From IMG/VR virus record IMGVR_UViG_3300024520_000215, positions 1-38,161 of that record: a DNA stretch of 38,161 nucleotides; one strand, given 5' to 3'. Shown here one piece after another: positions 745 through 20,817 of the stretch (positions are counted from its first letter, which is position 1; each line of letters opens with the position of its first letter). A model generated the notes under the pieces. That model was not told where the DNA came from. It searched no databases and saw only the letters and a list, made by a program, of their open reading frames with translations. The stretch is from a virus. The position numbers and the translations under genes were made by a program.

Positions 745-1739
745 GCGTTAAACAGCGAGGTAACGGCTGGCAGATAGACTTTCGGCTGGCTGACGGCACG
801 CGGTACCGGAAGATACATCCGTGCACTAGCCGTCAGGAAGCGGAGTTTGTGGAGCTGAAGGTCAAGAAGAATATTCGGCTGGGCCGGGGTGCGACCACAG
901 GTGACATGACACTTGAGCAGGCGTGCGACCGCGCACTAAAAGAGCACTACTCGCGGCTGAAAGACTCACGCGGTGCTGAGATAAATGTCGGTGTGCTGCT
1001 GAAAGTGCTTGACCCAAACATGTTGCTGAAAGACATCGACGGCAACGTGCTGACGGACCTAGTGAGTGACCTGAAGACTGAGCATGGTCACAAGGGTGGA
1101 ACAATCAACCGCAAGCTCGCCACATTACAAAAAGTAATGCGAATAGCCGTGGAACAGTGGGAAGTCATCGACAGGCTACCGAAGTTTCCGAAGCAGCCTG
1201 AGTCAGTAGGCCGCGTCAGAATTTTGACGCTTGGGGAGGAGTCCACTCTCCTAGAGCTGTTGCGCGGCCTAGACGACATCCGGTGCAGCTGCGCGGACTT
1301 CTTTGTCTTCCTGGTAGACACCGGGTGTCGGTTGTCCGAGGGGCTCGACCTGCAGTGGCGTGACGTCCAACTGGAGGAAGGCACCATCACCATCTGGGAG
1401 AATAAGGCCTCTCATCCCCGCACAGTGCCGTGCACTCAACGGGTGTTGTCTTGTTTGCGTGGACGCTCTGCTGGTATTGGACGGGTGTTCCATGACGTCA
1501 CCAAGGACCGCGCTGAGAGAGCTTTCCGGTACTGTCGGCACGCTATGGGCCTCGCTGATGACTCCCAATTTGTGGTTCATGCCCTACGGCACACCTGCGC
1601 CTCTCGGCTGGTCCGAGCTGGTGTGGAGCTGTATGCAGTCAAGACCTTGTTGGGGCACAAGAGCATCACCACCACGGAGAGGTACGCGCATCTGAATACG
1701 GATAGGCTGCGAGACGCTGTGAAGGTGCTGGAGCGATGA
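741..1739 (+). CDS. int: Tyrosine recombinase / phage integrase
   Basis: Site-specific integrase of 332 residues from the chosen start. All core catalytic residues are visible: R197 (in TGCRLSEG), H280 and R283 (HALRH), H306 (LLGHKS) and Y315 (ERYAHL). An N-terminal arm-binding-like segment (RGNGWQIDFRLADGTRYRK) and a central SAM-like core-binding region precede the catalytic domain. I chose the TTG at 741 because GGAGGG (728-733) sits 7 nt upstream; a TTG at 726 would leave no ribosome-binding site. It overlaps the regulator stop by 4 nt. A tRNA-Sec-like sequence 180 bp downstream is the likely attP core. Integrases are known in a minority of T7-like phages (for example some pelagiphages) and indicate a temperate capacity. 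Confidence 0.95.
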   Translation: MSVKQRGNGWQIDFRLADGTRYRKIHPCTSRQEAEFVELKVKKNIRLGRGATTGDMTLEQACDRALKEHYSRLKDSRGAEINVGVLLKVLDPNMLLKDIDGNVLTDLVSDLKTEHGHKGGTINRKLATLQKVMRIAVEQWEVIDRLPKFPKQPESVGRVRILTLGEESTLLELLRGLDDIRCSCADFFVFLVDTGCRLSEGLDLQWRDVQLEEGTITIWENKASHPRTVPCTQRVLSCLRGRSAGIGRVFHDVTKDRAERAFRYCRHAMGLADDSQFVVHALRHTCASRLVRAGVELYAVKTLLGHKSITTTERYAHLNTDRLRDAVKVLER

Positions 1740-1917: not shown

Positions 1918-2013
1918 GGGAGAGTATCGGAAGAAGTACCACTAGTCGGACTTCAAATCCAGTGAGACGCGTTCAACGTGTCTGGTGGGTTCGACTCCCA
2001 CGCTCTTCCGCCA
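1918..2013 (+). tRNA. tRNA-Sec (selC)-like sequence, probable attP core
   Basis: Ninety-six nt with clear tRNA-Sec features. An 8-bp acceptor stem is formed by 1918-1925 and 2002-2009, with two G-U pairs. A 5-bp T stem (1985-1989/1997-2001) carries a TTCGACT loop. The extra arm has 7 bp (AGACGCG/CGTGTCT). The 7-nt anticodon loop CTTCAAA carries TCA (1953-1955). The 3' end is G plus encoded CCA. The 8+5 acceptor/T arrangement and UCA anticodon are tRNA-Sec hallmarks. The 5' half is degenerate: no proper D stem can be drawn in 1928-1945, and C1947:A1961 is mismatched. That asymmetry, beside the integrase, fits an attP core carrying a faithful host 3' half. A functional phage tRNA or UGA suppressor is the less likely alternative. 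Confidence 0.65.
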
Positions 2014-2454: not shown

Positions 2455-4824
2455 ATGAGTATTGAACGTGAGCTGGAATTGGAGAACGAAGCTGTGCTCG
2501 GCGGAGTAGGTCGATACTGGGATGTCGTTGAATCCAGGGGTCATTCCGAAACGCACGTCGGACAGCGCTTGATTGCATTGTTGGTCGAAAGCACGTCTCC
2601 GCACATCGGACAATATATCGCGGATGCGAAGAAGGTTGATTACCGGAGTCCGGTTACTTATCTGGGCATGTCTAAACCATCGTCTTTGGCGTTGCTAACG
2701 TCCAGAGCAGTGGTTCAAGGTGTCTCTCAGTACAAGACGGCGACTACTGTCGCCAATCTCGTTGGGTCTCTCATCAGGGAGCACCTAGAATGGCAGCGTT
2801 TTTATGAGTCCGAGAAACCACTTGCTGCGCACATTTCAAAAGAGACTGCTAAAGCCACCACCGAGCGCCATCGTCGTGCAGTGGCTCGGCACGCTGTCGA
2901 ACGGTTCGGTGACCCACTGGACTGGACTCCCGAATTCACAATCAGAGTCGGTGCCGTACTGGTTGAATTGGTGTGCCTGCACTCGGGGCTGGTCGAGAAG
3001 CAGACGCACTTCGTGTCTCGCAAGAAGAAAAGAACCATCGTGACCCTGACTAATGACGCCAAGCTGATCCTTGAGTTTGGGCATATCCGAGCGGAAGACC
3101 TGAGCCCGATTTGGCTACCGATGGTGTGCTCTCCAAAGCCCTGGACGGCACCAACCGAAGGCGGCTATTGGCGACGTCGGCTACCGTTGGTCAAGGGTTC
3201 ACGCGGGTCGTATCTTGATGAGCTAGAGCATGCAGACATGCCGGTCGTATACGACGCTCTGAATGCACTGCAAATGACACCGTGGCGAATCAACCGGTCC
3301 GTGCTGCACGTGTTTCAGCAAGCGTACAACGCCGGGGACCAGTTGGCGTTGCCTGCTCGACAGGACAAGCCGTTACCCGCCAAGCCGACGGACATCGAGA
3401 CTAACGATATCGCTCGCAAGGAGTGGCGTATCAAGGCTGCGCGAACCTACGACCATAACGCTAGGTTGGTGTCTAAGCGGGTGGCTGCGTCTGCGAAGCT
3501 GTCTCTGGCCGAACGATTTGAACAAGAGGAGGCGATTTATTTCCCGCATGCTCTGGACTGGCGGGGCAGGGCGTACCCGATTCCGGTCGGTATCAATCCG
3601 CAGGCCGACGACCTTGGGAAAGCACTGATTCATTTCGCTAACGGAAAGCCGCTAGGTAAAGACGGCGCTAATTGGCTTGCTATCCACGTCGCCAATCTTT
3701 TTGGTGTCGATAAGGTCTCGTATGTCGGACGGATGCAGTGGGTGGTTGACCACACCGAGGAGATTTTGGACTCCGCAATGGACCCGCTAGACGGGAAACG
3801 GTTCTGGCTCGAAGCAGCCGACCCGTGGCAGGCACTGGCAGCGTGCTTTGAGTGGTTCGGCTACATGGTACAGGGTGCGGAGTACGTCTCTCACCTACCC
3901 ATATCCATGGATGGCAGTTGCAATGGGCTCCAGCATTTCAGCGCGATGTTGCGAGACGAGATTGGCGGGCACGCAACGAATCTCACAGCAAGCGAGGAGC
4001 CCCAAGACATCTATCAGATTGTTGCTGACCGGGTCACACAAAGGTTGGAAGAGGAGAGTGATGAACGCGCCGCCAAGTGGCTAGAACACGTCAGTCGGCA
4101 AATCGTCAAGAGACCCGTGATGACGCTGCCGTACGGTGCTACTCGCTACGGAATGCGCGACCAGATTCTGAAAGAGGTTCGCAAACACGAAGAAGATAAT
4201 AAGGGACCGATGTTTCCGGGGTCGGATGGATTCCGCGAGTCAAAGTTTCTCGGTGATTTGGTGTACGACTGCATCGGAGACGTCGTCATAGCCGCACGAG
4301 ATACCATGGACTGGCTGCAGGACTCTGCGCGTGTTGCTGCCCAAGCGGACCTGCCCATCTGGTGGACCACTCCCAGTGGACTGCCGGTCTGCCAAGACTA
4401 CCGAAAACGAAAAGGGAAGCGCGTGGAAGCGTGGGTTGGGTCGCAACGGATTACGTTACAGCTACAGCTCGATACCAGTGCCCTGAATGCGAAGCGCCAA
4501 GCGCTCGGCATCGCACCTAACTTTGTGCACTCGTTGGACAGCGCACACATGATGTTGACTGTCAGTCTGTGTCTGCAGGAGGGTATCACGGACTTCGCGA
4601 TGGTGCATGACTCCTATGGTGTTCATGCGTGTGATGCTGGTGAGATGGCTGCGGTTCTGCGTTCTGCATTCGTTATTCAATACGAGGAAGATGTTCTTCA
4701 GAAATTCCGCGAGGAGCTGTTACAGCAGCTCCCAGAGGAGCTGGCCGCTGAGCTTCCTCCAGTACCACCTAGCGGCAACTTAGACCTAGGGGTCGTGCAG
4801 GACTCGTTATATTTTTTTGCCTAG
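2455..4824 (+). CDS. gp1: T7-type single-subunit DNA-directed RNA polymerase
   Basis: Phage transcriptase of 789 residues (T7: 883) that should read the phage promoters. Recognised motifs: DWRGRAYP; motif A PISMDGSCNGLQHFSAML with catalytic D486; motif B VKRPVMTLPYG with K552 and Y560, at the same 8-residue spacing as T7 K631/Y639; and motif C FAMVHDSYG with catalytic D719. The protein ends in SLYFFA, like the C-terminal FAFA foot of T7 polymerase. The ATG at 2455 follows GGTGGAGG at suitable spacing. Its own leader carries a phage promoter and two GAGAC motifs, so expression is probably self-amplifying. It is the first gene to the right of the putative attP and reads away from it. Confidence 0.98.
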   Translation: MSIERELELENEAVLGGVGRYWDVVESRGHSETHVGQRLIALLVESTSPHIGQYIADAKKVDYRSPVTYLGMSKPSSLALLTSRAVVQGVSQYKTATTVANLVGSLIREHLEWQRFYESEKPLAAHISKETAKATTERHRRAVARHAVERFGDPLDWTPEFTIRVGAVLVELVCLHSGLVEKQTHFVSRKKKRTIVTLTNDAKLILEFGHIRAEDLSPIWLPMVCSPKPWTAPTEGGYWRRRLPLVKGSRGSYLDELEHADMPVVYDALNALQMTPWRINRSVLHVFQQAYNAGDQLALPARQDKPLPAKPTDIETNDIARKEWRIKAARTYDHNARLVSKRVAASAKLSLAERFEQEEAIYFPHALDWRGRAYPIPVGINPQADDLGKALIHFANGKPLGKDGANWLAIHVANLFGVDKVSYVGRMQWVVDHTEEILDSAMDPLDGKRFWLEAADPWQALAACFEWFGYMVQGAEYVSHLPISMDGSCNGLQHFSAMLRDEIGGHATNLTASEEPQDIYQIVADRVTQRLEEESDERAAKWLEHVSRQIVKRPVMTLPYGATRYGMRDQILKEVRKHEEDNKGPMFPGSDGFRESKFLGDLVYDCIGDVVIAARDTMDWLQDSARVAAQADLPIWWTTPSGLPVCQDYRKRKGKRVEAWVGSQRITLQLQLDTSALNAKRQALGIAPNFVHSLDSAHMMLTVSLCLQEGITDFAMVHDSYGVHACDAGEMAAVLRSAFVIQYEEDVLQKFREELLQQLPEELAAELPPVPPSGNLDLGVVQDSLYFFA

Positions 4825-4853: not shown

Positions 4854-4978
4854 TGACAAAGACAATACGTAAGCGTATGCCGAGGCCACCCGAAGTGCTT
4901 CGAAAAGGTGGCCCACAGCAGGACAAGCGGAGGAAGTTGCGGGAGAAAACTGAGCGTAGGGAGGCGCTCGAAAGATAA
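4853..4978 (+). CDS. Small highly basic protein (41 aa)
   Basis: A GTG-started ORF between the RNA polymerase gene and promoter 2. The product is 41 residues, very rich in Arg and Lys, with an N-terminal KTIRKRMPRPPEV segment and a charged helical tail. Short phage proteins with an R-K-x-MPxP pattern are common near early genes and are uncharacterised. No strong ribosome-binding site is visible upstream of the GTG, which lowers confidence. The stop codon lies inside promoter 2 (4971-5000). RNA or DNA binding is possible from charge alone; no function is assigned. Confidence 0.5.
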   Translation: MTKTIRKRMPRPPEVLRKGGPQQDKRRKLREKTERREALER

Positions 4979-5000
4979 GACACAGTATAGGTAAAGAAAG
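4971..5000 (+). promoter_or_regulatory. Phage RNA polymerase promoter, copy 2
   Basis: AAAGATAAGACACAGTATAG followed by GTAAAGAAAG, matching copy 1 at most positions including the CACA.TATAGGTA core. It precedes the replication block (5025 onward) and overlaps the stop codon of the small basic ORF. Start site would be the G pair at about 4990-4991. Confidence 0.75.
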
Positions 5001-5542: not shown

Positions 5543-5679
5543 TGCAGCGCTACATCGAGTCGCTGATCAGACGTGCCCGCATTTACCACGGCTTGAACAT
5601 GCAGTTGCCCCTTTGGTTGGTCGCTGAGATGAACGACGCCGGGATTATTATCGACGAACTACAGGAGAGCTTTGAGTAA
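5542..5679 (+). CDS. Small hypothetical protein (45 aa)
   Basis: The ORF starts in the stop of the preceding gene (TGATG) and ends in the start of the SSB gene (TAATG), so it sits in a fully coupled chain. The product has 45 residues, with a basic helical N-terminus, a central LPLWLVAEM segment and an acidic C-terminus. The tight packing on both sides is the main support. No family is recognised. Confidence 0.62.
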   Translation: MQRYIESLIRRARIYHGLNMQLPLWLVAEMNDAGIIIDELQESFE

Positions 5680-6323
5680 TGGCAAAGAAGAAGTACGAGA
5701 ATTTCACCTCTGAGTGTGGCGTTGCGGTCTTCCCACACCTCACCAAGGCGGACACCAAGTTCAAAGAGGAGGGCGAGTATCACGTCAAGCTGCGACTACA
5801 ACGCGGTGCGCCTGGTGTTGACGAGTTTCTGGAGCAGATTAACGCGAAGTTCGAGGAGAACTACGTGGACCAGTGCAAGCGTGCCAGGGAAGACAACAAG
5901 AAGAAGCCCAAGAAGTGTACTGACCTGCCATTTGCGGACGTCGAGAATGACGAGGGCGAAGAGACTAGCGAAGTGGACGTCAAGTTCAAGCTGCCCGCGC
6001 TTATCAAAGGCAAGCCCACCAAGGTTAAGTTCTTCGACGCAAAGGGTAAGGTCATTGAGAACCCCCAACCGATCTATGGTGGCTCCGAGCTGAAGATCAA
6101 CTTCTACTACTGGGGCTGGAACTATAGTAAGACTGGTGCTGGTGTCACGTTGCGCCTTCGCGGTGTACAGATCATTAAGCTGGTTACCGCAACTGGTGCG
6201 TCTAACAACCCAGACGACTACGGGTTCGGCGAGGAAGACGGCTACGAGGCACCTGAAGCTGACGACACGCCGTTCAAGGTAGAAGACAACGAAGAAGACA
6301 CAGGTGACGACGACGAGTTCTAA
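5679..6323 (+). CDS. gp2.5: Single-stranded DNA-binding protein, gp2.5-like
   Basis: 214 residues, close to T7 gp2.5 (232). It shares the gp2.5 architecture: an OB-fold-like beta-rich core, a charged insertion at about 65-95, and a strongly acidic C-terminal tail ending in DDDEF with a terminal aromatic residue. In T7 that tail docks on DNA polymerase and the helicase. It should coat single-stranded DNA at the fork and promote annealing. The ATG overlaps the preceding stop (TAATG); the end overlaps the RusA gene by 20 nt. Bases 5745-5765 recur exactly at 7152-7172 inside the amidase gene, in another frame there. Confidence 0.88.
   Translation: MAKKKYENFTSECGVAVFPHLTKADTKFKEEGEYHVKLRLQRGAPGVDEFLEQINAKFEENYVDQCKRAREDNKKKPKKCTDLPFADVENDEGEETSEVDVKFKLPALIKGKPTKVKFFDAKGKVIENPQPIYGGSELKINFYYWGWNYSKTGAGVTLRLRGVQIIKLVTATGASNNPDDYGFGEEDGYEAPEADDTPFKVEDNEEDTGDDDEF
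5745..5765 (+). repeat. 21-bp exact duplicate, donor-like copy in SSB
   Basis: These 21 bases (beginning AAGGCGGACACC and ending TTCAAA) are identical to 7152-7172. Here they encode KADTKFK in frame within the SSB core. A perfect 21-mer pair is not expected by chance in 38 kb (about 2 in 10,000). Confidence 0.9.
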
Positions 6324-6721: not shown

Positions 6722-7285
6722 ATGAAGAAACTCCTGCGCGAGGACGTCAAGTACATCGTCGTTCATTGCGCCGCAACCCGCCCCTCGATGAATTGGGGAG
6801 CTGAAGACATCGACCGACTGCACCGAAACTTTGGGTGGTCCGCAATCGGTTACCACTGGGTTATCCGTCGAGACGGTCAACTAGAGATGGGTCGCCCGCT
6901 AAATGTACCGGGAGCACATGCGTCTCGTCAGAACCACCACAGCATCGGTATCTGCATGGTCGGTGGTGTTAATGAAGACGACGTAACTATCGCGGAGAAC
7001 AACTTCACGGTGCAGCAATTTGCAACGCTGCATCGATTGCTCGACTCGATGGAAGACATGTTCCCAACTTCCGAGACTCTCGGTCACCGCGACTTACCGA
7101 ATGTTCATAAGGCGTGCCCGTCGTTCGACGTGCGCTCTTGGCGACTTCGAGAAGGCGGACACCAAGTTCAAAACCACCATGACCGGTTGGAGGAACCAAA
7201 CGATGTGGAACTGGAAGGAGCTGAAAATAGCGATAGCGACGACGCTGGTGCTGTTAGGTCTCGTCTTGCTGGTCCAGAGCGGTGA
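6722..7285 (+). CDS. gp3.5: N-acetylmuramoyl-L-alanine amidase (T7 lysozyme-like), altered C-terminus
   Basis: Zinc amidase that cuts the amide bond between muramic acid and L-Ala; in T7 it also inhibits the phage RNA polymerase. Key residues are in place: H15 (VVHCAAT), Y44, H122 (GHRDLP), K130 and C132 (HKACPSFDV), matching T7 H17, Y46, H122, K128 and C130. The homologous domain ends at about residue 140. The remaining 47 residues are hydrophilic and look non-homologous. The tail begins where a 21-bp copy of the SSB gene (7152-7172) sits, and it overlaps the next gene from 7203. The C-terminus may therefore be a frame-shifted scar. The start follows a GGAGGTAA site. Confidence 0.93.
   Translation: MKKLLREDVKYIVVHCAATRPSMNWGAEDIDRLHRNFGWSAIGYHWVIRRDGQLEMGRPLNVPGAHASRQNHHSIGICMVGGVNEDDVTIAENNFTVQQFATLHRLLDSMEDMFPTSETLGHRDLPNVHKACPSFDVRSWRLREGGHQVQNHHDRLEEPNDVELEGAENSDSDDAGAVRSRLAGPER
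7152..7172 (+). repeat. 21-bp exact duplicate in amidase tail
   Basis: Identical to 5745-5765 in the SSB gene. In the amidase frame it reads EGGHQVQ; in the SSB-equivalent frame it reads KADTKFK but is not in a known gene. It marks the point where the amidase stops resembling T7 lysozyme. Confidence 0.9.
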
Positions 7286-7676: not shown

Positions 7677-7879
7677 GAAAGACACAACCCGAACGCATCC
7701 TTGAGCAGCTTCGCGAAGGCCGCACAGTCACACCCCTGACGATGTTTATGCAGGGCATCAGCAACGGCTACGAGGCCATCCGCAAGTTACGCAAACGTGG
7801 GCATGACATCGAGACGGTGATGAAGGAATCGCCGACCGGCGGGACTTACCCACAGTACGAGCTGAAGGTGGTTGCATGA
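7673..7879 (+). CDS. Small winged helix-turn-helix protein
   Basis: 68 residues that look like the phage helix-turn-helix family in which ILEQLREGRTVTPL is followed by a recognition segment, then LRKRGHDIET and a short beta wing ending in YPQYEL. The whole protein is this one domain (about 5-65). It probably binds DNA or modulates transcription in the replication block. The ATG overlaps the previous stop (ATGA), and its own stop overlaps the next ATG in the same way. AGGAGA lies just upstream of the start. Confidence 0.75.
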   Translation: MRKTQPERILEQLREGRTVTPLTMFMQGISNGYEAIRKLRKRGHDIETVMKESPTGGTYPQYELKVVA

Positions 7880-8391
7880 GCGATGCCGGTGAAATGGCTG
7901 CGATAGCGCATTCAATGCGTCATACACATCTGCGTGACGTAATGCGTAACCGCGACCGCATGCGGTGGATTGCGCTGGAGACGTTTGCGTTCTACGAGGA
8001 GGACCCGAGTCGGCGAGCTGTCAAGGAAGGTGGATGTGCGTACCGGGATGCGCTCGGTCGGAAGTGTGCGCTCGGTAGGTATATCTTGGATGCGCATTAC
8101 ACCTCGGAACTAGAAGGGTGGTCCGCCCACGGTCTCGCAGGTCAGGCGGGTCGCATCGATTTCGACAGCTTACTCGCACCAGAGCATGCAGGACTCAGTC
8201 TCTTTTTCTGGGCATGTCTACAGGCGTGGCATGACCGGGCGGGCAACTGGGAGGTAGGGTCTGCTGAGGAACTGAGCGGACTTACCATGGCTGCTTCGAG
8301 ACGGTCCCGTGAGTCAGGTAAGCAAGAACTCTTGAATTACATCAACGACGGCAGGTTAGACGTCCTCACCCCCGGCCCGTCAGCAGCCTAG
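7876..8391 (+). CDS. Hypothetical protein with CAYRDALGRKCALG motif
   Basis: 171 residues, ATGA-coupled to the preceding gene. A CAYRDALGRKCALGRYI segment at about 54-70 resembles a motif found in many uncharacterised phage proteins (C-x-Y-x-D...GxKCAxG). The rest is helical with several Trp and His residues and an Ala/Pro C-terminus. No catalytic motif can be named. It lies between a small DNA-binding protein and the primase-helicase, so a role in replication or takeover is possible but unproven. Confidence 0.75.
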   Translation: MSDAGEMAAIAHSMRHTHLRDVMRNRDRMRWIALETFAFYEEDPSRRAVKEGGCAYRDALGRKCALGRYILDAHYTSELEGWSAHGLAGQAGRIDFDSLLAPEHAGLSLFFWACLQAWHDRAGNWEVGSAEELSGLTMAASRRSRESGKQELLNYINDGRLDVLTPGPSAA

Positions 8392-8543: not shown

Positions 8544-8716
8544 TGAGCGCTCGTCGATGCAAGAGCAGGCACAGAAACTGTTGGGTTATTGGTGGGTTTT
8601 GGCTTTGGTGTTACGAGTGCGGAGCAATTCGTCCGAATGTTGATGCTGCAGAACGACGCCCGTGGACTTATCCCGTTGGACCGGGAGGAGAAAACCCGGC
8701 ACTAACGAGTGGCTGA
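8543..8716 (+). CDS. Small zinc-binding hypothetical protein
   Basis: 57 residues with Cys/His residues in the first half (C6, H10, C13, then CYEC at about 23-26), a likely zinc ribbon. The ATG at 8543 is preceded by GGGGAGGAAG at ideal spacing; an upstream in-frame ATG at 8519 has no comparable site. The end overlaps the GTG start of the primase-helicase by 8 nt, so it is coupled to that gene. It might assist primase or bind nucleic acid; that is inference. Confidence 0.68.
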   Translation: MSARRCKSRHRNCWVIGGFWLWCYECGAIRPNVDAAERRPWTYPVGPGGENPALTSG

Positions 8717-10316
8717 CTCCGTCAACAAGGTGGCTCACGAGCCCTGCCCCGAGTGCGGCTCCAAAGACAACCTAGCGAGGTACGACGATGGACACGGGTA
8801 CTGCTTCGGATGCAAGTACTACGAAGCTGGCGATGGAGTTGAAACCAGCAGCAGTCGAGTTGCTTCTGATTGGGCGGTGTCTGGTGAGATTGTAGCCCTA
8901 CTCAAGCGTGGTATCCGTGAAGACACCTGTACCAAGTGGCGATACGAAAAAGGCCACTACCACGGCAAGTCTTGCCATATCGCAAACTACATCAAGAACA
9001 ACCGTGTAGTCGCCCAGAAGCTCCGCTTTGCCGACAAGTCGATGACCATAACCGGTGACGCTAAGGCCATGGGTCTCTACGGCGAGTGGCTGTGGCGCGA
9101 CGGCGGCAAACAGGTAGTCGTCACCGAAGGCGAGATAGACGCTCTCACGATGTCGCAGTTGAACGGCAACAAGTGGCCCGTCGTGTCTGTTCCCAACGGT
9201 GCGCAGTCAGCACCGAGAGCAATCGCCTCAAGTCTGGAGTGGCTGGAGAAGTTCGAGAAGGTAATCTTCATGTTTGACATGGACGAGCCCGGACAGAAGG
9301 CGGCGGTCAAGTGCGCTCTCAAGCTGAGCCCCGGCAAGGCGTTCATTGCCACGCTCCCGGCGAAAGACCCGAGCGAAGCGCTGCAGAAGGGCAAGTCGAA
9401 GGAGCTGCTCGATGCGATGTGGGGCGCGAGGGAGTATCGCCCAGATGGCATCGTGTCCGTCGCTGACGTACGCGAGGAGGCGTTGCGCCCAGCAACGTGG
9501 GGCGTGTCATGGCCCTGGGAAGAACTGACAGCCCTGACTTATGGCATCCGCCCGAAAGAGTGCATTGCTATCGGTGCTGGCACTGGTGTCGGCAAGACAG
9601 ACTTCATGCTGGAGGTCGCGCAGCACCTCATCAAGGAACACAATGCGAAGGTCGCTGGATTCTGGCTTGAGCAACCTGTTGTCGAGACCATCCAGCGTAC
9701 AGCCGGGAAGCTATGTAGCAAGTTGTTCCACGTGCCTGACGCCGGATGGACCGAGGAAGAGTTGGTCAACGCCATCAACGAACTGGCGGAACGCAACCAG
9801 TTATATCTTTACGACCACTTTGGCAGCACCGCGTGGGACACCATCAAGTCACGCATGCGGTATGTCGTGCAGGCACTGGGCGTCAAGTACGTGTTCCTTG
9901 ACCACCTGACTGCACTGGCTGCGCATGCCGACGACGAACGCCGCGCATTGGAAAGTATCATGGCGGACTTGTCGAAGCTGACCCAGGAGTTGGACTTCAC
10001 GTTGTTCTTTGTCAGCCACCTGGCAACGCCAGAAGGCAAGCCGCACGAAGAGGGCGGACGGGTCACGATTCGGCACTTCAAAGGCAGCCGTGCGATTGGA
10101 TTTTGGTCGCACTATATGTTCGGCCTGGAGCGGAACCAGCAGTCCGACGACGAGGCCACACGAGCAACGACCACGTTCCGGGTTCTGAAAGACAGGTACA
10201 CAGGACGAGCGACTGGCGAGCGGTTGTACTTTCAGTACGACCAGGAGACGGGACGGCTGCGGCTGTGTGATGAATGTCCCTTTGGGGACGAGACAAATGA
10301 AGGAGGAGACTTTTGA
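8709..10316 (+). CDS. gp4: DNA primase-helicase, T7 gp4-like
   Basis: Bifunctional replication protein of 535 residues (T7: 566). In order: a zinc-binding domain with C13, C16, C32 and C35 (CPECG...CFGC); a TOPRIM primase domain with VVVTEGEIDALT and the FMFDMDEPGQ acidic motif; and a RecA-like hexameric helicase with Walker A GAGTGVGKT (about 289-297), Walker B YVFLDHLTAL and an FFVSHL...KGSRAIG segment. It would unwind DNA 5'-3' and make primers at the fork with the SSB and gp5-like polymerase. It starts with GTG and overlaps the previous gene. Bases 9932-9960, encoding DERRALES, recur exactly in the next gene. Confidence 0.97.
   Translation: MADSVNKVAHEPCPECGSKDNLARYDDGHGYCFGCKYYEAGDGVETSSSRVASDWAVSGEIVALLKRGIREDTCTKWRYEKGHYHGKSCHIANYIKNNRVVAQKLRFADKSMTITGDAKAMGLYGEWLWRDGGKQVVVTEGEIDALTMSQLNGNKWPVVSVPNGAQSAPRAIASSLEWLEKFEKVIFMFDMDEPGQKAAVKCALKLSPGKAFIATLPAKDPSEALQKGKSKELLDAMWGAREYRPDGIVSVADVREEALRPATWGVSWPWEELTALTYGIRPKECIAIGAGTGVGKTDFMLEVAQHLIKEHNAKVAGFWLEQPVVETIQRTAGKLCSKLFHVPDAGWTEEELVNAINELAERNQLYLYDHFGSTAWDTIKSRMRYVVQALGVKYVFLDHLTALAAHADDERRALESIMADLSKLTQELDFTLFFVSHLATPEGKPHEEGGRVTIRHFKGSRAIGFWSHYMFGLERNQQSDDEATRATTTFRVLKDRYTGRATGERLYFQYDQETGRLRLCDECPFGDETNEGGDF
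9932..9960 (+). repeat. 29-bp exact duplicate, donor-like copy in helicase
   Basis: Twenty-nine bases beginning CGACGAACGCCG are identical to 10370-10398, 438 bp downstream. Here they encode DERRALESI in the conserved helicase domain, so this is presumably the original copy. A chance 29-mer repeat in 38 kb is negligible. Confidence 0.93.
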
Positions 10317-10531
10317 AACGTTATGTAGTCAAACACGACGGAAAGTATTTCCCCGAACGCGTGGGGTGTCGACGAACGCCGCGCATTGGAAAGTATCACG
10401 GTGAGTGGGTGGGGGACCTCCAGGAGGCACGTGTGTACTCAAACAGGGCGAACGCGATGTTCGCAACACCCCACGACATCCGCAATAAAGTCGAGTTTGT
10501 GTTTGTGCGAATAGAGGAGCTTTCCGAATGA
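10313..10531 (+). CDS. Hypothetical protein carrying a 29-bp insertion-like repeat
   Basis: 72 residues, TTG start overlapping the helicase stop (TTGA), with AGGAGGAG just upstream. The N-terminus (YVVKHDGKYF) and the segment GEWVGDLQEARVYSNRANA look like a small beta-alpha phage protein. Between them lies GCRRTPRIGKYHG, encoded largely by bases 10370-10398, an exact copy of part of the helicase gene read in a different frame. The copy appears to enlarge a loop without breaking the frame. The 3' end is ATGA-coupled to the lipoprotein gene. Function unknown. Confidence 0.72.
   Translation: MKRYVVKHDGKYFPERVGCRRTPRIGKYHGEWVGDLQEARVYSNRANAMFATPHDIRNKVEFVFVRIEELSE
10370..10398 (+). repeat. 29-bp exact duplicate in small gene
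   Basis: Identical to 9932-9960 in the primase-helicase gene, but read in another frame (RRTPRIGKY instead of DERRALES). Flanking bases differ on both sides, so the duplication is exactly 29 bp. Confidence 0.93.
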
Positions 10532-10785: not shown

Positions 10786-12480
10786 ATGGGACCAACCCTA
10801 AAGGTTTCAGAAGAAATACAAGCAGCCAAGCACCGATTACCAGGTGAATCTTTCCATGACGCCACTGCGCGCATTGCGAGCGCCCTCAAGGACAACGATG
10901 AGCACTTCAATGAGCTTAAAGACATTCTGCGTGGAATGCGTTTTCTTCCTGGTGGACGTGTCCAAAGTGCTATGGGAGCACCTAGGAGAGTTACTCCATA
11001 CAACTGTTTCGTCAGTCAGACAATCCACGACTCGATGGGCGGCATCATGGAGGCCGTTACAGAAGCGGCAGAAACGATGCGACTCGGAGGGGGTATCGGA
11101 TACGACTTCAGCACCCTGCGTCCACGCGGTGACCGCATCGCAAGTCTTGATAGTCAAGCGTCTGGCCCTATCAGTTTTATGCGCATCTTTGATGCAACGT
11201 GCGCAACAATCGCAAGTGCAGGACATCGACGAGGCGCACAAATGGGTGTCCTTCGCGTTGACCACCCTGACATCGAAGAGTTCATCCACGCTAAACAGAA
11301 CGACTCGCATCTGACTGCATTCAATGTCTCTGTCGGTATTACTGACGAATTCATGCGGGCAGTTCAGTCTGGCAGTGACTTTTCACTGAGATGGGGTGGG
11401 CAGAAGTACCAAACAATTAACGCGAAGAACTTGTGGGAAAGCATCATGCGTTCCACGTGGGATTACGCTGAGCCGGGTGTGTTGTTCATCGACCGAATTA
11501 ACAGGGTGAACAACCTGTGGTACTGCGAAGACATTACGGCGACCAACCCATGCGGTGAGCAGCCGTTGCCACCGTACGGTGCGTGTCTGCTAGGGTCGTT
11601 CAACTTGCCTCGTTATTTAGAGCTTATTGACGGTGCCTTTTGGCACTTCAACACAGCTCTTTTCCAGCGTGACATTCACACAGTAGTTCGCGGGATGGAC
11701 AACGTTGTTGACCGTGCGGTGTATCCGTTAAAAGAACACGAGACCGAAGCAAAGGCCAAGCGACGTATGGGTCTTGGGATAACTGGTTTCGCAAATGCAG
11801 TTGCTATGTGCGGCAGCGAGTACGGCAGCAATGAATCGCTAGTGTTCTTGGAGGCCGTGCTGACGAAGCTGAGAGACGAAGCGTATTTGGCGAGCTGCAG
11901 GTTGGCGCAAGAAAAAGGCGCTTTCCCAGCATACAGACAAGGTCGTTATTGCTCCAGTCGTTTCATTAAGACATTACCTGAGTACATCCAGAAGATGATT
12001 GAGCGCTTTGGTACTCGTAACAGTCATCTGCTCAGTATCGCGCCAACCGGCACCATCAGTCTCGCTGCCGACAACGTGTCGTCTGGCATTGAACCAGTCT
12101 TTGCGCACGAGTACGAGCGCACCATTCAGACTCCGAGTGGTCCTGAAATTGAAAGTGTGACGGATTACGCGTGGCGTGAGCACGGACTCAGACAGAGGAC
12201 AGCCGATGAGTGTTCGGCAGATGACCATCTAAGTGTTCTGCTGGTCGCTTCAAAGTACATGGACAGCTCTGTCTCGAAGACCTGTAACGTTGGTGAAGAG
12301 GTTTCGTGGGAAGACTTTAAGGGCATCTACATGCGTGCCTGGGAAGGTGGAGCCAAGGGATGCACAACGTTCCGGGCAGCCGGTAAGCGTGCCGGAATTC
12401 TCAAAGTGAAGGACTCGGAGGACAACACGGAAGCCGCGTGCTTTATCGATGACAACGGTCAAAGACATTGCGGCGACTGA
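10786..12480 (+). CDS. nrdJ: Ribonucleotide reductase, class II (adenosylcobalamin-dependent)
   Basis: Reduces ribonucleotides to deoxyribonucleotides for phage DNA synthesis. 564 residues, in the size range of short phage NrdJ proteins. Visible motifs: C74 in PYNCFVSQ; LGGGIGYDFS; N254, C256 and E258 in the NPCGEQPLPPYGACLLGSFN active-site loop; and SIAPTGTISL. A C-terminal cysteine pair (C552, C562) could relay electrons. No beta-subunit (nrdB) or NrdD glycyl-radical motif is present, which supports class II and hence dependence on host cobalamin. It lies directly before the DNA polymerase. The ATG immediately follows the lipoprotein stop with no obvious ribosome-binding site. Confidence 0.92.
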   Translation: MGPTLKVSEEIQAAKHRLPGESFHDATARIASALKDNDEHFNELKDILRGMRFLPGGRVQSAMGAPRRVTPYNCFVSQTIHDSMGGIMEAVTEAAETMRLGGGIGYDFSTLRPRGDRIASLDSQASGPISFMRIFDATCATIASAGHRRGAQMGVLRVDHPDIEEFIHAKQNDSHLTAFNVSVGITDEFMRAVQSGSDFSLRWGGQKYQTINAKNLWESIMRSTWDYAEPGVLFIDRINRVNNLWYCEDITATNPCGEQPLPPYGACLLGSFNLPRYLELIDGAFWHFNTALFQRDIHTVVRGMDNVVDRAVYPLKEHETEAKAKRRMGLGITGFANAVAMCGSEYGSNESLVFLEAVLTKLRDEAYLASCRLAQEKGAFPAYRQGRYCSSRFIKTLPEYIQKMIERFGTRNSHLLSIAPTGTISLAADNVSSGIEPVFAHEYERTIQTPSGPEIESVTDYAWREHGLRQRTADECSADDHLSVLLVASKYMDSSVSKTCNVGEEVSWEDFKGIYMRAWEGGAKGCTTFRAAGKRAGILKVKDSEDNTEAACFIDDNGQRHCGD

Positions 12481-12514: not shown

Positions 12515-14422
12515 ATGCTCGTATTTGATATCGAGACCAACGGTCTCTTAGGAAAGCTGGACCGGGTGCATTCGCTGGTGTTCTTTGACACGGAGCTGGG
12601 CGTGCGATTCTCTGTTGCCACTCACGATAGCCCACACGCGCTACCGGAGGCTCTGAACGAGCTGATGTACGCGGACGAAATCTGCGGCCAGAACATCATC
12701 GCATTCGACATCCCCGCCATTCAGAAGGTTTACCCGTGGTTCGCGCCAACCGGACGCATTGTAGACACGACCGTGCTCAGTAGGTTGCTGTACCCGGACA
12801 TGCTGGACCGGGACATCGTGTGGGACAAGAAGAAGCGCGGTAAGTGGATTCCACGCAACTTGTTCGGAAGGCACTCGCTGGAGTCTTGGGGTCATAGACT
12901 TGGGGAATTTAAGGACGACTACTCGAAGCGCATGAAGGCCGAGGGTAAAGACCCGTGGGCGGAATGGAATCCGTTGATGCAGAGTTACTGTGAGCAGGAC
13001 GTCGAGGTGACCGTGAAGCTGGTAAAGAAGCTGTTGGCTAAGAACCCGACCGTCGAGAGCTTCGAGCTGGAGCATGGGACGCAACAAATTATCTTCCGCC
13101 AGGAGCGCCGTGGCTTCGCGTTCGATGAACAGGCCGCGCAGAAGCTGCACGCGGAGCTGGTTGGGAAACAAACTTTCCTAGAGTCTGAGCTTAAGAAAGT
13201 ATTTCCGCCTTTCTTTGCGCCCAACGGACTGACCAAACCGAAGCGCTCGATGAAACGGAAGAACGATGTCACCGGTATCAAGGATGAAATAACTGAGGGC
13301 GCGCAGTATATGAAGGTGAAGCTGGTCCAGTTTAATCCAGGCAGCCGGGACCACATTGGGAAGCGGCTTCAGGTGCAGTTCGGGTGGCGACCGGCAGAGT
13401 ACGGTAAGGACGGCAAGCCGACGGTCGACGAAACCATCCTGAAGGGGTTGCCCTATGAATTCTGCCCACTGCTGGTGGATTACCTCACGTTGGACAAGAG
13501 GATTGGCATGTTAGCCACCGGAAAGCAGGCGTGGCTGAAGCAAGCCAAGGACGGTCGCATACACGGGCGTGTCAACACTAACGGTGCCGTAACGGGACGT
13601 ATGACCCATAGCAATCCCAACGTTGCGCAAGTGCCTGCCGTGCGTAGTCCGTACGGACCAGAGTGCCGCGACTTGTTCGTCGCGGGGCGGGGTTACTCGT
13701 TGGTGGGTATCGACGCCGAGGGATTGGAGCTGCGAGCGCTAGGCCACTACCTTGCGCGGTGGGACGCCGGGGCGTACGGAAACACCGTCGTCAACGGCAA
13801 CAAGGAAGACGAGACCGACGTCCACAACGTGAACAAGCGCGCTATCGGCTTGAACAGTAGGGACAGCGCCAAGACGTTCGTGTACGCGTTTCTGTACGGC
13901 GCAGGGAACATGAAGCTTGGCCACATCATATACATCGATGACATGACGCCCGACCAGCGACGTCAGTTTGGTTCGCCAACTGAACGCAAGCTGAGCCACC
14001 TTGGGAAAAAGTCTCGCGATTCATTTGCGGAGAACATCCCCGGTCTGAAGAAGTTCATCGACGCCGTCAAGAAGGTTGCTAAGCGCGGGTACCTGAAGGG
14101 ACTCGACGGGCGGCGTCTCAAAGTACGGGCACTTCACGCCGCACCCAACACATTGCTGCAGAGCGCGGGCGCGATTGTCATGAAGCGGGCGTTGTTGTTC
14201 CACGACCAACTACTACAAGACGGAGGGTTCATCCCCGGTGAAGACTACGAGTATGTGTGCAACGTCCACGACGAGCTGCAAGTCGAGGCGAGACCAGCGA
14301 TAGCAGATGAAGTCGGACGCGTCGGGTGTGACGCCATTCGACTCGCGGGTAAGCACTTCAACTTCAGGTGCGAACTTGCTGGAGATTACTCAGTCGGGGA
14401 CTCGTGGCGAGAGACCCACTAG
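12515..14422 (+). CDS. gp5: DNA polymerase, T7 gp5-like (family A)
   Basis: Replicative polymerase of 635 residues (T7: 704). The 3'-5' exonuclease domain opens with FDIETNG, D5 and E7 at the same positions as T7. Polymerase motif A is GIDAEGLELRALGHYL with D400; motif B is RDSAKTFVYAFLYGAG; motif C is CNVHDELQVEA with H585-D586. In T7 the partner is host thioredoxin, bound by an insertion in the thumb; I cannot verify such a loop here. The ATG at 12515 follows AAAGGAGG. The HNH gene overlaps its 3' end. Confidence 0.97.
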   Translation: MLVFDIETNGLLGKLDRVHSLVFFDTELGVRFSVATHDSPHALPEALNELMYADEICGQNIIAFDIPAIQKVYPWFAPTGRIVDTTVLSRLLYPDMLDRDIVWDKKKRGKWIPRNLFGRHSLESWGHRLGEFKDDYSKRMKAEGKDPWAEWNPLMQSYCEQDVEVTVKLVKKLLAKNPTVESFELEHGTQQIIFRQERRGFAFDEQAAQKLHAELVGKQTFLESELKKVFPPFFAPNGLTKPKRSMKRKNDVTGIKDEITEGAQYMKVKLVQFNPGSRDHIGKRLQVQFGWRPAEYGKDGKPTVDETILKGLPYEFCPLLVDYLTLDKRIGMLATGKQAWLKQAKDGRIHGRVNTNGAVTGRMTHSNPNVAQVPAVRSPYGPECRDLFVAGRGYSLVGIDAEGLELRALGHYLARWDAGAYGNTVVNGNKEDETDVHNVNKRAIGLNSRDSAKTFVYAFLYGAGNMKLGHIIYIDDMTPDQRRQFGSPTERKLSHLGKKSRDSFAENIPGLKKFIDAVKKVAKRGYLKGLDGRRLKVRALHAAPNTLLQSAGAIVMKRALLFHDQLLQDGGFIPGEDYEYVCNVHDELQVEARPAIADEVGRVGCDAIRLAGKHFNFRCELAGDYSVGDSWRETH

Positions 14423-14903
14423 ACCGTGCTTGGATTGTGGTGTTTCCCTTGCTCTGGGAGAGAACTGGACCGAAGCCTCGAAAAATCTATATCGGTATGT
14501 TTGTAAAACATGCGTTAATGCGCGTTCGCTCCGGTGGCGTAAGTCAAACAGAGACAGCACCCAAGCGACCAACAGAAGATGTCACATCAAGAATGTTTCT
14601 CGCCTAGAGGAATACTTGTCGTCTCGTGGTCATCAATGCGAGCTTTGTGTGAAAACGTGGCCCCGCGAGGTTTTGGATTTTCACCACCCTATCCCTGAAA
14701 GAAAAGAACGGCGGCTGGGCGCACCGGACTGGTCGGGTGGTTCAGCTGGCAGGGCCGTCCGCCGTGAAGCCGACTCTTGCCATCTCCTCTGCTCCAACTG
14801 CCACCGCCTAGAGCACGCCGCGTTACGACAGGGAGAATCTCTTCTTGCCGCCAAGGGAATCGTGCGCCCGGTTGGTCCCGCTAGTGATACGGAGGATTCA
14901 TGA
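14376..14903 (+). CDS. HNH homing-type endonuclease
   Basis: Free-standing nuclease of about 175 residues between the DNA polymerase and exonuclease genes. A zinc ribbon (CLDCG...CKTC) precedes CELC, then the HNH core: H103-H104 (DFHHPIP), N141 and H143/H147 (LLCSNCHRLEH), with flanking cysteines that would bind structural zinc. Such genes are often selfish elements that cut related phages. The start is uncertain: a TTG at 14376 overlaps the polymerase by 47 nt, while an ATG at 14307 would overlap it by 116 nt. The stop is coupled to the exonuclease ATG (ATGA), so it now sits within the operon. Confidence 0.85.
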   Translation: MLEITQSGTRGERPTRPCLDCGVSLALGENWTEASKNLYRYVCKTCVNARSLRWRKSNRDSTQATNRRCHIKNVSRLEEYLSSRGHQCELCVKTWPREVLDFHHPIPERKERRLGAPDWSGGSAGRAVRREADSCHLLCSNCHRLEHAALRQGESLLAAKGIVRPVGPASDTEDS

Positions 14904-15709
14904 AGACCCTGCTGATAGACGGAGACATTTTGGCGTACAAGTACGCCCTCGTAAACCAAGAGGACTTCTCGTGGTCACCAGGCGACATTACTTCGGTAGC
15001 CGACCTGGGGGCCGCTCAGTTCGCAATCCGCCAGTGCATCGAGAACTGGGAGTTCGAGTTGGGCGCTGAGAAGTCTGTCATCGCCCTGTCAGACCCCAAG
15101 TCCAACTGGCGCAAGTCTGTCCTCAAGACGTATAAGCACAACCGGGCGGACAAGAAGAAGCCCCTGCTGCACGGCGAACTCCGCGAGTACATGCGTTCCA
15201 CGTGGAAGACCTTTGAGGTGCCCACCCTGGAGGGCGACGACGTGCTAGGAATACTGGCGACCAACAACAAGATGGTTCCGGGCGAGAAGATTGTCGTGTC
15301 CCTGGATAAGGACATGCTGACGGTGCCGTGCAAACTGTTCAGACCACATAAGCCAGAAGAGGGTTTGCTCAACATCCGTAGTGGGGAGGCTGACTACTGT
15401 CACATGCTGCAGACACTCACGGGTGACCCCACTGATGGGTACGAGGGGTGTCCGGGTGTGGGTAAAAAGACGGCTGAACGGTTGCTAGATGTGGTCGAAG
15501 ACTATGAGTACGGAGAATCGCTAGGGGGCTTCGACCCAAGGTGGTTCGCGGTTCTGGTGGCCTACGCCGCCTCCAAGCTCCGGGGCGACCCCGTCGAGCG
15601 CGCTCTTCAACAAGCGCGCGTAGCACGCATCTGCCGAAACGAGGACTACGACTTCAAGAAAAAGGAGGTGAGGTTATGGTATCCGTACCCGCCAGTCCCG
15701 CATGGTTAA
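14900..15709 (+). CDS. gp6: 5'-3' exonuclease, T7 gp6-like
   Basis: Flap/5' nuclease of 269 residues (T7 gp6: 300) that degrades host DNA and removes primers. It begins with LLIDGDILAYKYA, the N-terminal acidic metal site of the PIN-like 5' nuclease fold, followed by EGDDVLGILA with paired Asp. The helix-hairpin-helix region TGDPTDGYEGCPGVGKKTAE binds DNA. Start overlaps the HNH stop (ATGA). The gene ends 70 bp before the terminator that closes the replication block. Confidence 0.95.
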   Translation: MKTLLIDGDILAYKYALVNQEDFSWSPGDITSVADLGAAQFAIRQCIENWEFELGAEKSVIALSDPKSNWRKSVLKTYKHNRADKKKPLLHGELREYMRSTWKTFEVPTLEGDDVLGILATNNKMVPGEKIVVSLDKDMLTVPCKLFRPHKPEEGLLNIRSGEADYCHMLQTLTGDPTDGYEGCPGVGKKTAERLLDVVEDYEYGESLGGFDPRWFAVLVAYAASKLRGDPVERALQQARVARICRNEDYDFKKKEVRLWYPYPPVPHG

Positions 15710-15807: not shown

Positions 15808-15834
15808 AAAGATAAACCACATTATTGGTATCCC
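15808..15834 (+). promoter_or_regulatory. Phage RNA polymerase promoter, copy 3
   Basis: AAAGATAAACCACATTATTG followed by GTATCCC. It is identical to copy 1 for the first 18 bases and has T instead of A just before the GG of the start region. It follows the terminator at 15780-15807 and would drive the virion genes from 15849 on. Confidence 0.75.
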
Positions 15835-15848
15835 CAGAAGTTTCCTAG

Positions 15849-16022
15849 ATGAAACCATTGCCAGCAACCGTCGAATCCCTAATAGCCGAACTCGACGTCC
15901 TATATCCCCTTCGAGCCCCTCAATTAGACGAGACCGACCGCCAAATCTTCTTCAAGGCCGGTCAGCGTGAGCTGGTTGACAAGCTGAAGGCCCGTCTCCA
16001 GTACACCAAGGAACTCGCCTGA
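15849..16022 (+). CDS. Small virion-block protein (57 aa)
   Basis: First gene after promoter 3. It encodes 57 residues: an N-terminal helix (VESLIAELDVLYP), a DETDR stretch and a charged C-terminal helix (GQRELVDKLKARLQ). It is ATGA-coupled to the gp7.3-like gene. Short proteins of this type often precede portal genes in marine T7-like phages, but I cannot assign a function. The consistent coding signature and coupling make it likely real. Confidence 0.7.
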   Translation: MKPLPATVESLIAELDVLYPLRAPQLDETDRQIFFKAGQRELVDKLKARLQYTKELA

Positions 16023-16228
16023 TGTGCATCGGTCCTCTTGCCTCCAAGAAACCCAAAGCTCTGCCCCTACCGCCACCTCCCCCACCACCCAAGCAGATCG
16101 CACCACCGGCAGACCCCGCAGACACCAGCGCTGCAAAGACTGCGAAGGCACGCAAAAAGGGCACCTCCAGCCTCCAGATACCACTAGGTAGCTTCGGTGG
16201 GACTGCTGGCCTGAACCTCCCCGGCTAA
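16022..16228 (+). CDS. gp7.3-like small virion/tail assembly protein
   Basis: 68 residues with an N-terminal MCIGP, a poly-proline stretch at about 19-27, an Ala/Lys region and a C-terminus (KKGTSSLQIP...GGTAGLNLPG) resembling the GKKSLSV..SGGGINI end of T7 gp7.3, a tail-associated assembly protein. Position just before the portal is the same as in T7. The N-terminal Cys-Ile-Gly is not a signal peptide. Homology is judged by pattern and synteny only. Confidence 0.6.
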   Translation: MCIGPLASKKPKALPLPPPPPPPKQIAPPADPADTSAAKTAKARKKGTSSLQIPLGSFGGTAGLNLPG

Positions 16229-16231
16229 CGG

Positions 16232-17788
16232 ATGTTGCTGATACCCGGCGAGCTGAAAAAGCGATACGACGAGTGGGCTCAAAAGAAACGCGAACCGTTT
16301 CTTAGACGTGCGCGCGAGGCGTCCGCCTTGACGCTGCCAACATTGATTCCTCCCGAGAGCCACACGGGCGAGAACGACTTACCTAGCCCCTACCAGAACA
16401 TGGGCTCACGTGGTGTGAACAACATCGCATCTAAGCTGTTGCTGATTATGTTCCCGCCGAATCAGCCGTTCTTCCGAATGGTAATCAACGACTATGACAC
16501 GCAGAAAGAGACCGACGGGAACCCCGACGCCAAGAAGGATGTAGAAGAGGCTCTAGCTCGCTACGAGAACGCTGTCATTCAGAACATCGAGACATCAGAC
16601 GCTCGCGTGAAGATGTTCCAGACCATGAAGCACTTGGCTGTCTCTGGCAACGGACTAGTGTTCAACCAGGACGACGGCAACACCCGGCTTTACGCACTCG
16701 ACCAGTACGTCATCAAGCGTGACGCATCCGGCAACGTCCTAGCGCACATCGCGATGGACAGAGTCGCGCCAATAGCTCTGGATGAAGCCACTCAAGCAGC
16801 CTTACAGGGCAAGGTCGAACCCGACCAGATGGCCGAGGACCACAAGCTGTACACTGGTGTTGCCTGGGACGGCAAGAAATGGCGTGTCTGGCAAGAGGTT
16901 GCTGATACCGTAATTCCTAGCTCACGGGGAACGTACACCAAGAAGAACAACCCGTGGCTGCCGATTCGCCTGGAGGCAATCGACGGCGAGGACTATGGGC
17001 GCGGTTACGTCGAGAACTTTATAGGTGACTTGCAGTCCGCTGAAGGTCTGTCCGAAGCAATCGTAGAGGGTGCGCGTAATGCCGCCAAAGTGATTTGGAT
17101 GGTGAGTCAGAATGGATTCACCAGGATAGAAGACCTTGTTAAGGCTCCGAATGGTGGTTTTGTTTCAGGGAGCCCCGACGATGTCCAGGCGCTCCAGTTA
17201 CAAAAGTCCACGGACTTCAACACGGCCTTCCAGGCACTACAGGGCATCGCTGCGGACCTGAGCCGCGCATTCTTGATGAACACCTCAGTACAGCGCCCCG
17301 GTGAACGCGTCACTGCCGAAGAGATTCGCTTCGTCGCGCAGGAGCTTGAAGACGCACTCGGCGGTGTTTACTCGGTGCTTGCCCAGGAGCTGCAGTTACC
17401 GTTCCTGAAGTACCGCATCATGCGCCTAGAGAAGCACAAAAAGCTTCCCAAGCTGCCCGACTCCGTGAATCCCACCATCACCACCGGCCTACAGGCGCTT
17501 GGTCGTGGCCACGATTTGGAGCGACTAAGAGTCCTGGTTGGGCAAATTGCTCAGCTCGGTCCCGAGGTGGTGGACAAACACGTCAACATGGGTGGCCTGA
17601 TTGGCCAGCTCGCAGCCGCACTGAACGTCGAACCAAAGGGTCTTATCAATGACCCGCAGGACATCGAGCAGCAGGAGCAGCAGCAGCAACTTATGGCAAT
17701 GCTTCAACAAGCAATGCCTGGAATTATGAGCATGGCTGACAACCAGTTAACGAATGCGCAGAACGCGCAAGGAGATGCACAGCAATGA
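16232..17788 (+). CDS. gp8: Portal protein (head-tail connector), T7 gp8-like
   Basis: 518 residues, close to T7 gp8 (536). It would form the dodecameric portal at the capsid vertex through which DNA is packaged. Family-like features are the N-terminal ELKKRYDEWAQKKREPFLRRA helix, SRGVNNIASKLLLIMFPPNQPFFRM, the clip/stem region with EGLSEAIVEGARNAAK and a VTAEEIRFVAQELEDALG segment, and a Gln/Asn-rich C-terminus (IEQQEQQQQLMAML). It lies between the gp7.3-like and scaffold genes as in T7. The next small gene overlaps its stop (ATGA). Confidence 0.96.
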   Translation: MLLIPGELKKRYDEWAQKKREPFLRRAREASALTLPTLIPPESHTGENDLPSPYQNMGSRGVNNIASKLLLIMFPPNQPFFRMVINDYDTQKETDGNPDAKKDVEEALARYENAVIQNIETSDARVKMFQTMKHLAVSGNGLVFNQDDGNTRLYALDQYVIKRDASGNVLAHIAMDRVAPIALDEATQAALQGKVEPDQMAEDHKLYTGVAWDGKKWRVWQEVADTVIPSSRGTYTKKNNPWLPIRLEAIDGEDYGRGYVENFIGDLQSAEGLSEAIVEGARNAAKVIWMVSQNGFTRIEDLVKAPNGGFVSGSPDDVQALQLQKSTDFNTAFQALQGIAADLSRAFLMNTSVQRPGERVTAEEIRFVAQELEDALGGVYSVLAQELQLPFLKYRIMRLEKHKKLPKLPDSVNPTITTGLQALGRGHDLERLRVLVGQIAQLGPEVVDKHVNMGGLIGQLAAALNVEPKGLINDPQDIEQQEQQQQLMAMLQQAMPGIMSMADNQLTNAQNAQGDAQQ

Positions 17789-17997
17789 CAGACGCAAACC
17801 CACTGAAGCTCGGAGAAGACAGCGCCAAGATAGGTCCCGACGTTTCTGACCTGATGGCTCAGAAGCAAGCTGAAAAAGCCGCCGAGCAAGAGCAACACGG
17901 TGGAGCAGGTACTCCCAGCCCACAGCGGCCTCCGTCAATGAAAGGTGACGACGTCGTTGTCATCAACGGCGAAAAGTACCAGCGGACCAACCACTAA
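17785..17997 (+). CDS. Small hydrophilic virion-block protein
   Basis: 70 residues, ATGA-coupled to the portal gene and ending immediately before the scaffold GTG. It is charged and disordered-looking (a QKQAEKAAEQEQHGG stretch), with a final beta hairpin-like DVVVINGEKYQR. No known domain. The arrangement portal - small protein - scaffold suggests an assembly co-factor, but this is inference. Confidence 0.72.
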   Translation: MTDANPLKLGEDSAKIGPDVSDLMAQKQAEKAAEQEQHGGAGTPSPQRPPSMKGDDVVVINGEKYQRTNH

Positions 17998-18813
17998 GTG
18001 ACGGAGAACGTCCAGCTCGATATTGGTGGAGACCAATCCGCGCCGCCTGAAGGCCACGCTGATGCAATGGCCCATAGGTTTGACAACCAAGGGCAACCAC
18101 CACCGCCCGCGAACAACGAGCCACAGCGTCCTGAAAATGTCCCCGAGAAGTTCTGGAAGGATGGCAAGGTTGACACTGAAGGCTTGTTGCAAGCTCACGG
18201 TGAACTAGAGACCAAGCTTGGAGCTAACACTCTAGAGCCAGAAAGACCTGACCCGAAGGCGCTCGAGTCCAACAATGAGCCGGGGCTACAGGGCCAGCTT
18301 GGCATCGAGTCGGATTCGTGGGCGCGCTACACACGAGAAGCCGGCGGTGAGGGTCTTTCTGACGAGTCCTACACAGAGCTGGCTGCCAAGGGTCTTGACC
18401 GGCAACTGGTAGACACGTACATCGAAGGCCAGAAGGCTGTCGGTGAGCGTATCGTCTCCAGCGCCAAGAGCATGTTCTCAGGCGACGACGCAACGCAAAC
18501 CGAACAGTACGGCACGATGACAGCCTGGGCGCAAGAGAACTACACGCCCGAGCAGGCTGAGTCCTTCAATGCCGCCATGAACAGTGGCAGTCAGGACAAG
18601 GCAGCCGAAGCTTTCCGTAACATGAAGTCCAACTACGAGAACGTTGAAGGCGTACGCCCGAGCCTCGTTAGTGGTGACGCAGGACGCAGCGATGGTGGGG
18701 ACACCTACGCGTCGATGCAACAGGTTACCACCGACATGAAAACTCCGCTGTACAAGACTGACCCCGCCGAGCGTGCGCGGGTTCACGCGAAGCTCGATAG
18801 GTCGAACATCTAA
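17998..18813 (+). CDS. gp9: Capsid assembly (scaffolding) protein, T7 gp9-like
   Basis: 271 residues (T7 gp9: 307), acidic and mostly helical, immediately upstream of the capsid region. The N-terminus is disordered and Pro-rich; NVPEKFWKDGKVDTEGLLQAHGELE is typical of T7-like scaffolds. A central TREAGGEGLSDESYTELAAKG region and a basic C-terminal helix (PAERARVHAKLDR) complete the usual layout, the latter being the expected capsid-binding end. It would direct procapsid assembly and leave before packaging. Starts with GTG directly after the previous stop. Confidence 0.93.
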   Translation: MTENVQLDIGGDQSAPPEGHADAMAHRFDNQGQPPPPANNEPQRPENVPEKFWKDGKVDTEGLLQAHGELETKLGANTLEPERPDPKALESNNEPGLQGQLGIESDSWARYTREAGGEGLSDESYTELAAKGLDRQLVDTYIEGQKAVGERIVSSAKSMFSGDDATQTEQYGTMTAWAQENYTPEQAESFNAAMNSGSQDKAAEAFRNMKSNYENVEGVRPSLVSGDAGRSDGGDTYASMQQVTTDMKTPLYKTDPAERARVHAKLDRSNI

Positions 18814-18823
18814 GCTTCTCCCA

Positions 18824-18918: not shown

Positions 18919-18919
18919 A

Positions 18920-20111: not shown

Positions 20112-20130
20112 ACCCACCAGCAGTACCAAA

Positions 20131-20165: not shown

Positions 20166-20184
20166 TTTCATAAACGAGGTTTGA

Positions 20185-20469: not shown

Positions 20470-20476
20470 CCCTTCC

Positions 20477-20815: not shown

Positions 20816-20817
20816 CC

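Follow-up and report, generated by a model that had tools for sequence, protein, structure and literature searches.

Template switching comes readily to a T7 replisome reconstituted in vitro, and depends there on the 3' exonuclease of the polymerase (PMC9484634). This speaks for templated copying in the T7-like phage genome considered here, which has machinery of the same type and a polymerase that keeps its exonuclease motifs. The chimeras made in vitro, however, are for the most part long inverted products of hairpin type, whereas the copies described below are patches of 20-30 nt, a difference that weighs against explaining them by templated copying. A likeness of form is found in the templated insertions attributed to MMBIR, FoSTeS and short-range template switching, which, in the papers cited here (PMC8421209, PMC7954356), are short exact copies of a segment of the same genome, direct or inverted, with the donor unchanged; these come from eukaryotes, whereas the present copies lie inside genes of a natural phage genome, where the history of the junctions is unrecoverable. 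Template switching in yeast has also been shown to make new protein segments, the common feature being a multinucleotide coding change taken from a copied template, although in that work (PMC8604942) it acts between the arms of short inverted repeats, whereas donor and copy in the phage are separated by 0.4-11 kb and had not been repeats beforehand.

The window, that is the whole stretch of DNA analysed here, comprises 38161 bases and is an entire IMG/VR record. Profile searches of its gene products revealed a T7-type gene set together with a tyrosine integrase (Table 1). The closest IMG/VR helicases share 58% identity with that of the window, and the closest capsids about 70%, two near-identical contigs being set aside. 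A 29-bp segment of the primase/helicase gene recurs in the small gene that follows it, and on balance we regard this match as probably a recent, non-homologous templated copy, accompanied in the same genome by two independent events of like kind.

Table 1. Genes of the window, with the donor and recipient segments of the three repeat pairs.
Feature	Position	Strand	Remarks
Tyrosine integrase gene	726-1739		phrog_1, E=6e-53
Single-subunit RNA polymerase	2455-4824
gp2.5-like SSB gene	5679-6323
Donor segment, SSB gene	5745-5765	+	encodes KADTKFK
T7-lysozyme-like amidase gene	6722-7285	+	187 aa; phrog_822, E=3e-56
21-bp copy of SSB segment	7152-7172	+	just beyond the conserved amidase end FDVRSW
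22-bp inverted copy of capsid segment	8268-8289	+	in ORF 7876-8391
T7-type DNA primase/helicase gene	8709-10316	+	donor gene; phrog_239, E=1.5e-173
Donor segment, primase/helicase gene	9932-9963	+	29 bp exact, 31/32 extended
72-aa ORF, recipient	10313-10531	+	TTG start after AAGGAGGAG
Copy of helicase segment	10370-10401	+	within the 72-aa ORF; different frame from donor
Ribonucleotide reductase gene	10786-12480
DNA polymerase gene	12515-14422
HNH endonuclease gene	14307-14903
Exonuclease gene	14900-15709
Head-tail adaptor gene	16232-17788
Major capsid gene	19182-20111		phrog_267, E=1e-70
Probable donor segment, major capsid gene	19335-19356	-	HGKSAQF; matches the copy via the minus strand
RusA-like resolvase gene			member of the T7-type gene set
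Scaffold gene, tail genes, terminase gene			rest of the T7-type gene set

The identity between 9932-9960 and 10370-10398, claimed in a first-pass annotation made from the sequence alone, is exact over its 29 bp, and when the match is extended to 9963/10401, 31 of 32 positions agree. The segments are 438 bp apart and, as the annotation also held, are out of frame with one another: the donor is read in frame 2 of the helicase ORF, giving DDERRALESIM, and the copy in frame 0 of ORF 10313-10531, giving RRTPRIGKY. DERxxLExIM or near variants of it occupy the donor site in most of 25 aligned helicase relatives, which identifies the helicase as the donor and agrees with the claim that conserved helicase residues are encoded there. 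The transfer of helicase sequence to its neighbour is thus real, as annotated, and it is recent. The recipient ORF is probably a genuine gene, to judge from the good ribosome-binding site AAGGAGGAG ahead of the TTG at 10313 and from its overlaps with both neighbours, the helicase stop on one side and, by 4 bp, the next ATG on the other. No homolog of the 72-aa protein was found by tblastn of phages and plasmids with the whole query, by tblastn of phages with its C-terminal part, in PHROGs, Pfam and a related-locus search, in 80 helicase loci and whole relatives, or in 81 capsid/amidase loci, and the matches returned by two DNA-pattern scans for its W..DL..AR motif were noise. The annotation had described the segment as inserted in this gene; the copy is indeed there, and the data searched offered no copy-free homolog to establish an insertion.

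The SSB/amidase case given in the same annotation is likewise real, 5745-5765 and 7152-7172 being identical over 21 bp at a distance of 1407 bp. Most relatives have PDTKF at the SSB donor site, and the direction of copying is as firm here as for the helicase. The copy lies 10 nt past the codon for W140, the last conserved codon of the amidase, and because homologs in which the FDVxxW end is preserved terminate 2-12 residues later, at 142-152 aa, whereas the window protein reaches 187 aa, the stop codon has probably been displaced by the copy; the extra C-terminal tail overlaps the next gene, with a likely start at ATG 7203. This copy thus appears to have abolished the stop codon of a lysis enzyme, which became longer as a result.

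The remaining pair is an inverted match of 22 bp, its members 11067 bp apart, between ORF 7876-8391 and the major capsid gene. GKSAxFP is kept in 19/19 aligned capsid relatives, and the capsid gene is the probable donor, in which case the recipient lies upstream of the donor. This direction is assigned less firmly because the recipient residues EELSGLT resemble the motif GLS/GLT of the ORF's own family, whose alignment is ambiguous in a variable region after LQ..HD....W. The single direction and the distance class of 0.4-1.4 kb downstream that had been proposed for the copies are broken by this pair, inverted and 11 kb away.

A comparison of repeats with simulated genomes, akin to that which the first-pass annotation proposed, yields three gene-to-gene pairs beyond chance. 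When exact and ungapped repeats of every kind were scanned without bias, and tandem arrays, in-gene repeats and a 23-nt promoter-like repeat were set aside, the 29-bp pair and the two further pairs rose above chance, the null being 60 simulated order-3 Markov genomes in which the longest direct repeat per genome was 14-19 bp. The closed-form expectation for a repeat of at least 29 bp is about 1e-8 (3e-9 to 5e-8), and chance is excluded for that pair; a 16-bp match between 11445-11460 and 15190-15205 is within chance expectation, as had been supposed. Under a homogeneous model 1e-4 to 1e-3 pairs are expected for each of the 21-bp and 22-bp matches, a figure that codon structure lifts somewhat, and this, with the resemblance of the ORF 7876 segment to its family motif, would favour treating both as coincidences and only the 29-bp pair as real. 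Such a double coincidence in one genome would nevertheless be very improbable, and in the amidase the copy falls where a stop codon was lost, so that we consider chance a very unlikely source of the two weaker pairs. Decayed older copies, sought in the window against simulation, showed no excess beyond tandem arrays, in-gene repeats and promoter-like repeats.

Among relatives such copies are hardly to be found. The comparison set was made up of 0.95 Mb from 26 related genomes and 0.90 Mb from 91 additional non-redundant loci, about 1.85 Mb in all. No gene-to-gene copy in it that reached 20 bp was clearly out of frame or inverted, the gene calls being mechanical and the loci often fragments of 4-20 kb, so that distant pairs are under-sampled. 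The two-copy exact between-gene repeats of at least 20 bp in this set were in-frame pairs of 21 bp (G008), 24 bp (L073) and 42 bp (L150), the latter two in adjacent genes and probably paralogues; one further locus (L075) has a longer, diverged repeat, the second ORF of which is doubtful. The Poisson probability of three events in 38 kb is 1.4e-6 at a rate of one event per 1.85 Mb, and 1.5e-4 at the 95% upper bound of that rate, for a window picked because a reader had already seen repeats in its sequence. Templated copying is therefore not general among T7-like phages, yet it is recurrent in this genome, and the recurrent micro-duplication process that the annotation supposed holds for the window, with its three cases, and not for T7-like phages generally. 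The rate is thereby bounded, the process being rare and this genome an outlier. In one relative (G010, at 31435 and 31775; L106/L107) two adjacent small genes 340 bp apart have a near-identical start, ESNVDKQARTL, possibly an in-frame gene-start duplication, and in another (G013, at 35975 and 37260; L113) there is a 30-bp duplicate that resembles a tRNA 3' end and is perhaps related to an attachment site.

Most likely the copies arose by rare templated micro-insertion, a mutation class already known, while the DNA was being replicated or repaired. A 3' end at work in the small gene that follows the helicase would shift to helicase sequence 438 bp away, copy about 30 nt and return, leaving the donor unchanged and adding the copy without replacing any sequence; the switch could arise during replication or break repair of phage DNA, by template switching or microhomology repair. 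Like events would have carried SSB sequence to the amidase end and, inverted, capsid sequence into ORF 7876, and a fork moving rightward would place the donors of both direct cases on the same exposed template of the lagging strand. Templated insertion fits the presence of direct and inverted copies, the intact donors, and the lack of tandem order and of target-site duplication; at all three places the donors, which encode protein motifs conserved in 19-25 relatives, are retained. Template switching also fits where slippage does not, since inverted and direct cases occur together, and replication slippage or tandem duplication is further rejected by copies 438, 1407 and 11067 bp apart. A transposon or insertion sequence is rejected as well, as the bases flanking each copy do not repeat, and no transposase was seen among the gene products scanned, a subset of the ORFs. 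CRISPR-spacer-like integration fails on lengths of 29, 21 and 22 that do not form one class and on the absence of flanking duplication. Where the first-pass annotation invoked template switching by the phage polymerase, switching would be the most plausible movement, but the polymerase itself is not its obvious cause: it keeps DIETNG, NIIAFDIPA and YCEQD, which, after T7 gp5, we take to be the catalytic exonuclease motifs, and is therefore not an obvious proofreading mutant, so that defective proofreading was discarded. A generic property of T7-type polymerases is also insufficient to explain three copies in one genome, because comparable ones are missing from about 1.85 Mb of relatives with replication genes of the same type. 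The copies presumably had little or no selective effect and were tolerated where constraint on the ORF is weak or at the ends of genes; no function is needed to account for them, and none is suggested by the data.

A different source of the copies would be chimeric molecules, formed in whole-genome amplification or library preparation and then perpetuated in a contig of low coverage. Such an origin could account for three flawless copies without decay in a single contig when relatives have practically none, T7 and phi29 polymerases yield chimeras in vitro (PMC9484634), and among the contigs searched there was no second one covering 7152, 8268 or 10370. Against this, two contigs from other samples agree with the window over 15874-26634, L142 at 99.94% with 6 substitutions and L143 at 99.96% with 3, neither showing an indel, so that population and assembly are sound over this stretch, which takes in the capsid segment and a 31-bp tandem repeat at 18824. 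At the copies themselves an artefact is unlikely, as each would require two chimeric joints, neither the 72-aa ORF nor ORF 7876 is interrupted by its copy, and the former retains its ribosome-binding site and overlaps; we hold the artefact explanation as a whole to be unlikely.

Repair in the host has also to be considered, in that an integrated prophage may have been patched by host end-joining or mutagenic break repair rather than during phage replication. The tyrosine integrase, close to a tRNA-Sec-like sequence, suggests that the phage may reside in a chromosome, an HNH endonuclease gene is present, and templated insertions arise from break repair in other systems; lysogeny is, however, a prediction from gene content, and none of the three sites bears a direct sign of a break, which makes this origin rather improbable. 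That the repeats are instead functional sites, such as protein-binding sites, origins or promoters, held identical by selection, we find barely tenable. Multi-copy promoter-like repeats do occur in relatives, and the window itself has three 23-nt promoter-like copies (2186, 4971 and 15808), but the three pairs are different sequences, each in two copies only and coding, with one member each fixed by a conserved protein motif, whereas a phage promoter or regulatory repeat would be expected in several, mostly intergenic copies.

Rare templated micro-insertion, if correctly identified, would provide instances from nature of templated copying below the scale of a gene in a T7-like phage. A further reading strikes us as distinctly doubtful, namely that templated micro-copying runs at an elevated rate in this lineage, owing to the phage's own genes for replication or repair or to growth in a host whose repair is mutagenic, and that small ORFs and gene ends are thereby rewritten with out-of-frame pieces of conserved genes. 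Were it true, raised micro-copying would be a source of new protein sequence.

Several other repeats and elements were observed in the window. Downstream of the integrase, 1918-2009 (plus strand) resembles a selenocysteine tRNA over its full length (Rfam RF01852, 47.3 bits vs a gathering threshold of 47); it has the anticodon loop CUUCAAA, is not called by ARAGORN, and is either an attachment site of selC origin or a tRNA-Sec carried by the phage. Between it and the RNA polymerase gene, a 13-bp tandem array, AGTCCCTTCTATC, occupies 2302-2353 in 3.2 copies. The 23-nt repeat AAAGATAAACCACATTATAGGTA, at 2186-2208, 4971-4993 and 15808-15830, is likely a promoter sequence used by the phage RNA polymerase. 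A 31-bp tandem duplication with CCCAGG...CCTGGG arms in each unit lies at 18824-18892, upstream of the capsid gene; it is unchanged in two independent contigs and followed by a terminator-like hairpin at 18884-18906. Finally, ORF 23057-23674 has within it, at 23204-23566, repeats of about 66 and 132 bp that have diverged and in which a WNW-type protein motif recurs.
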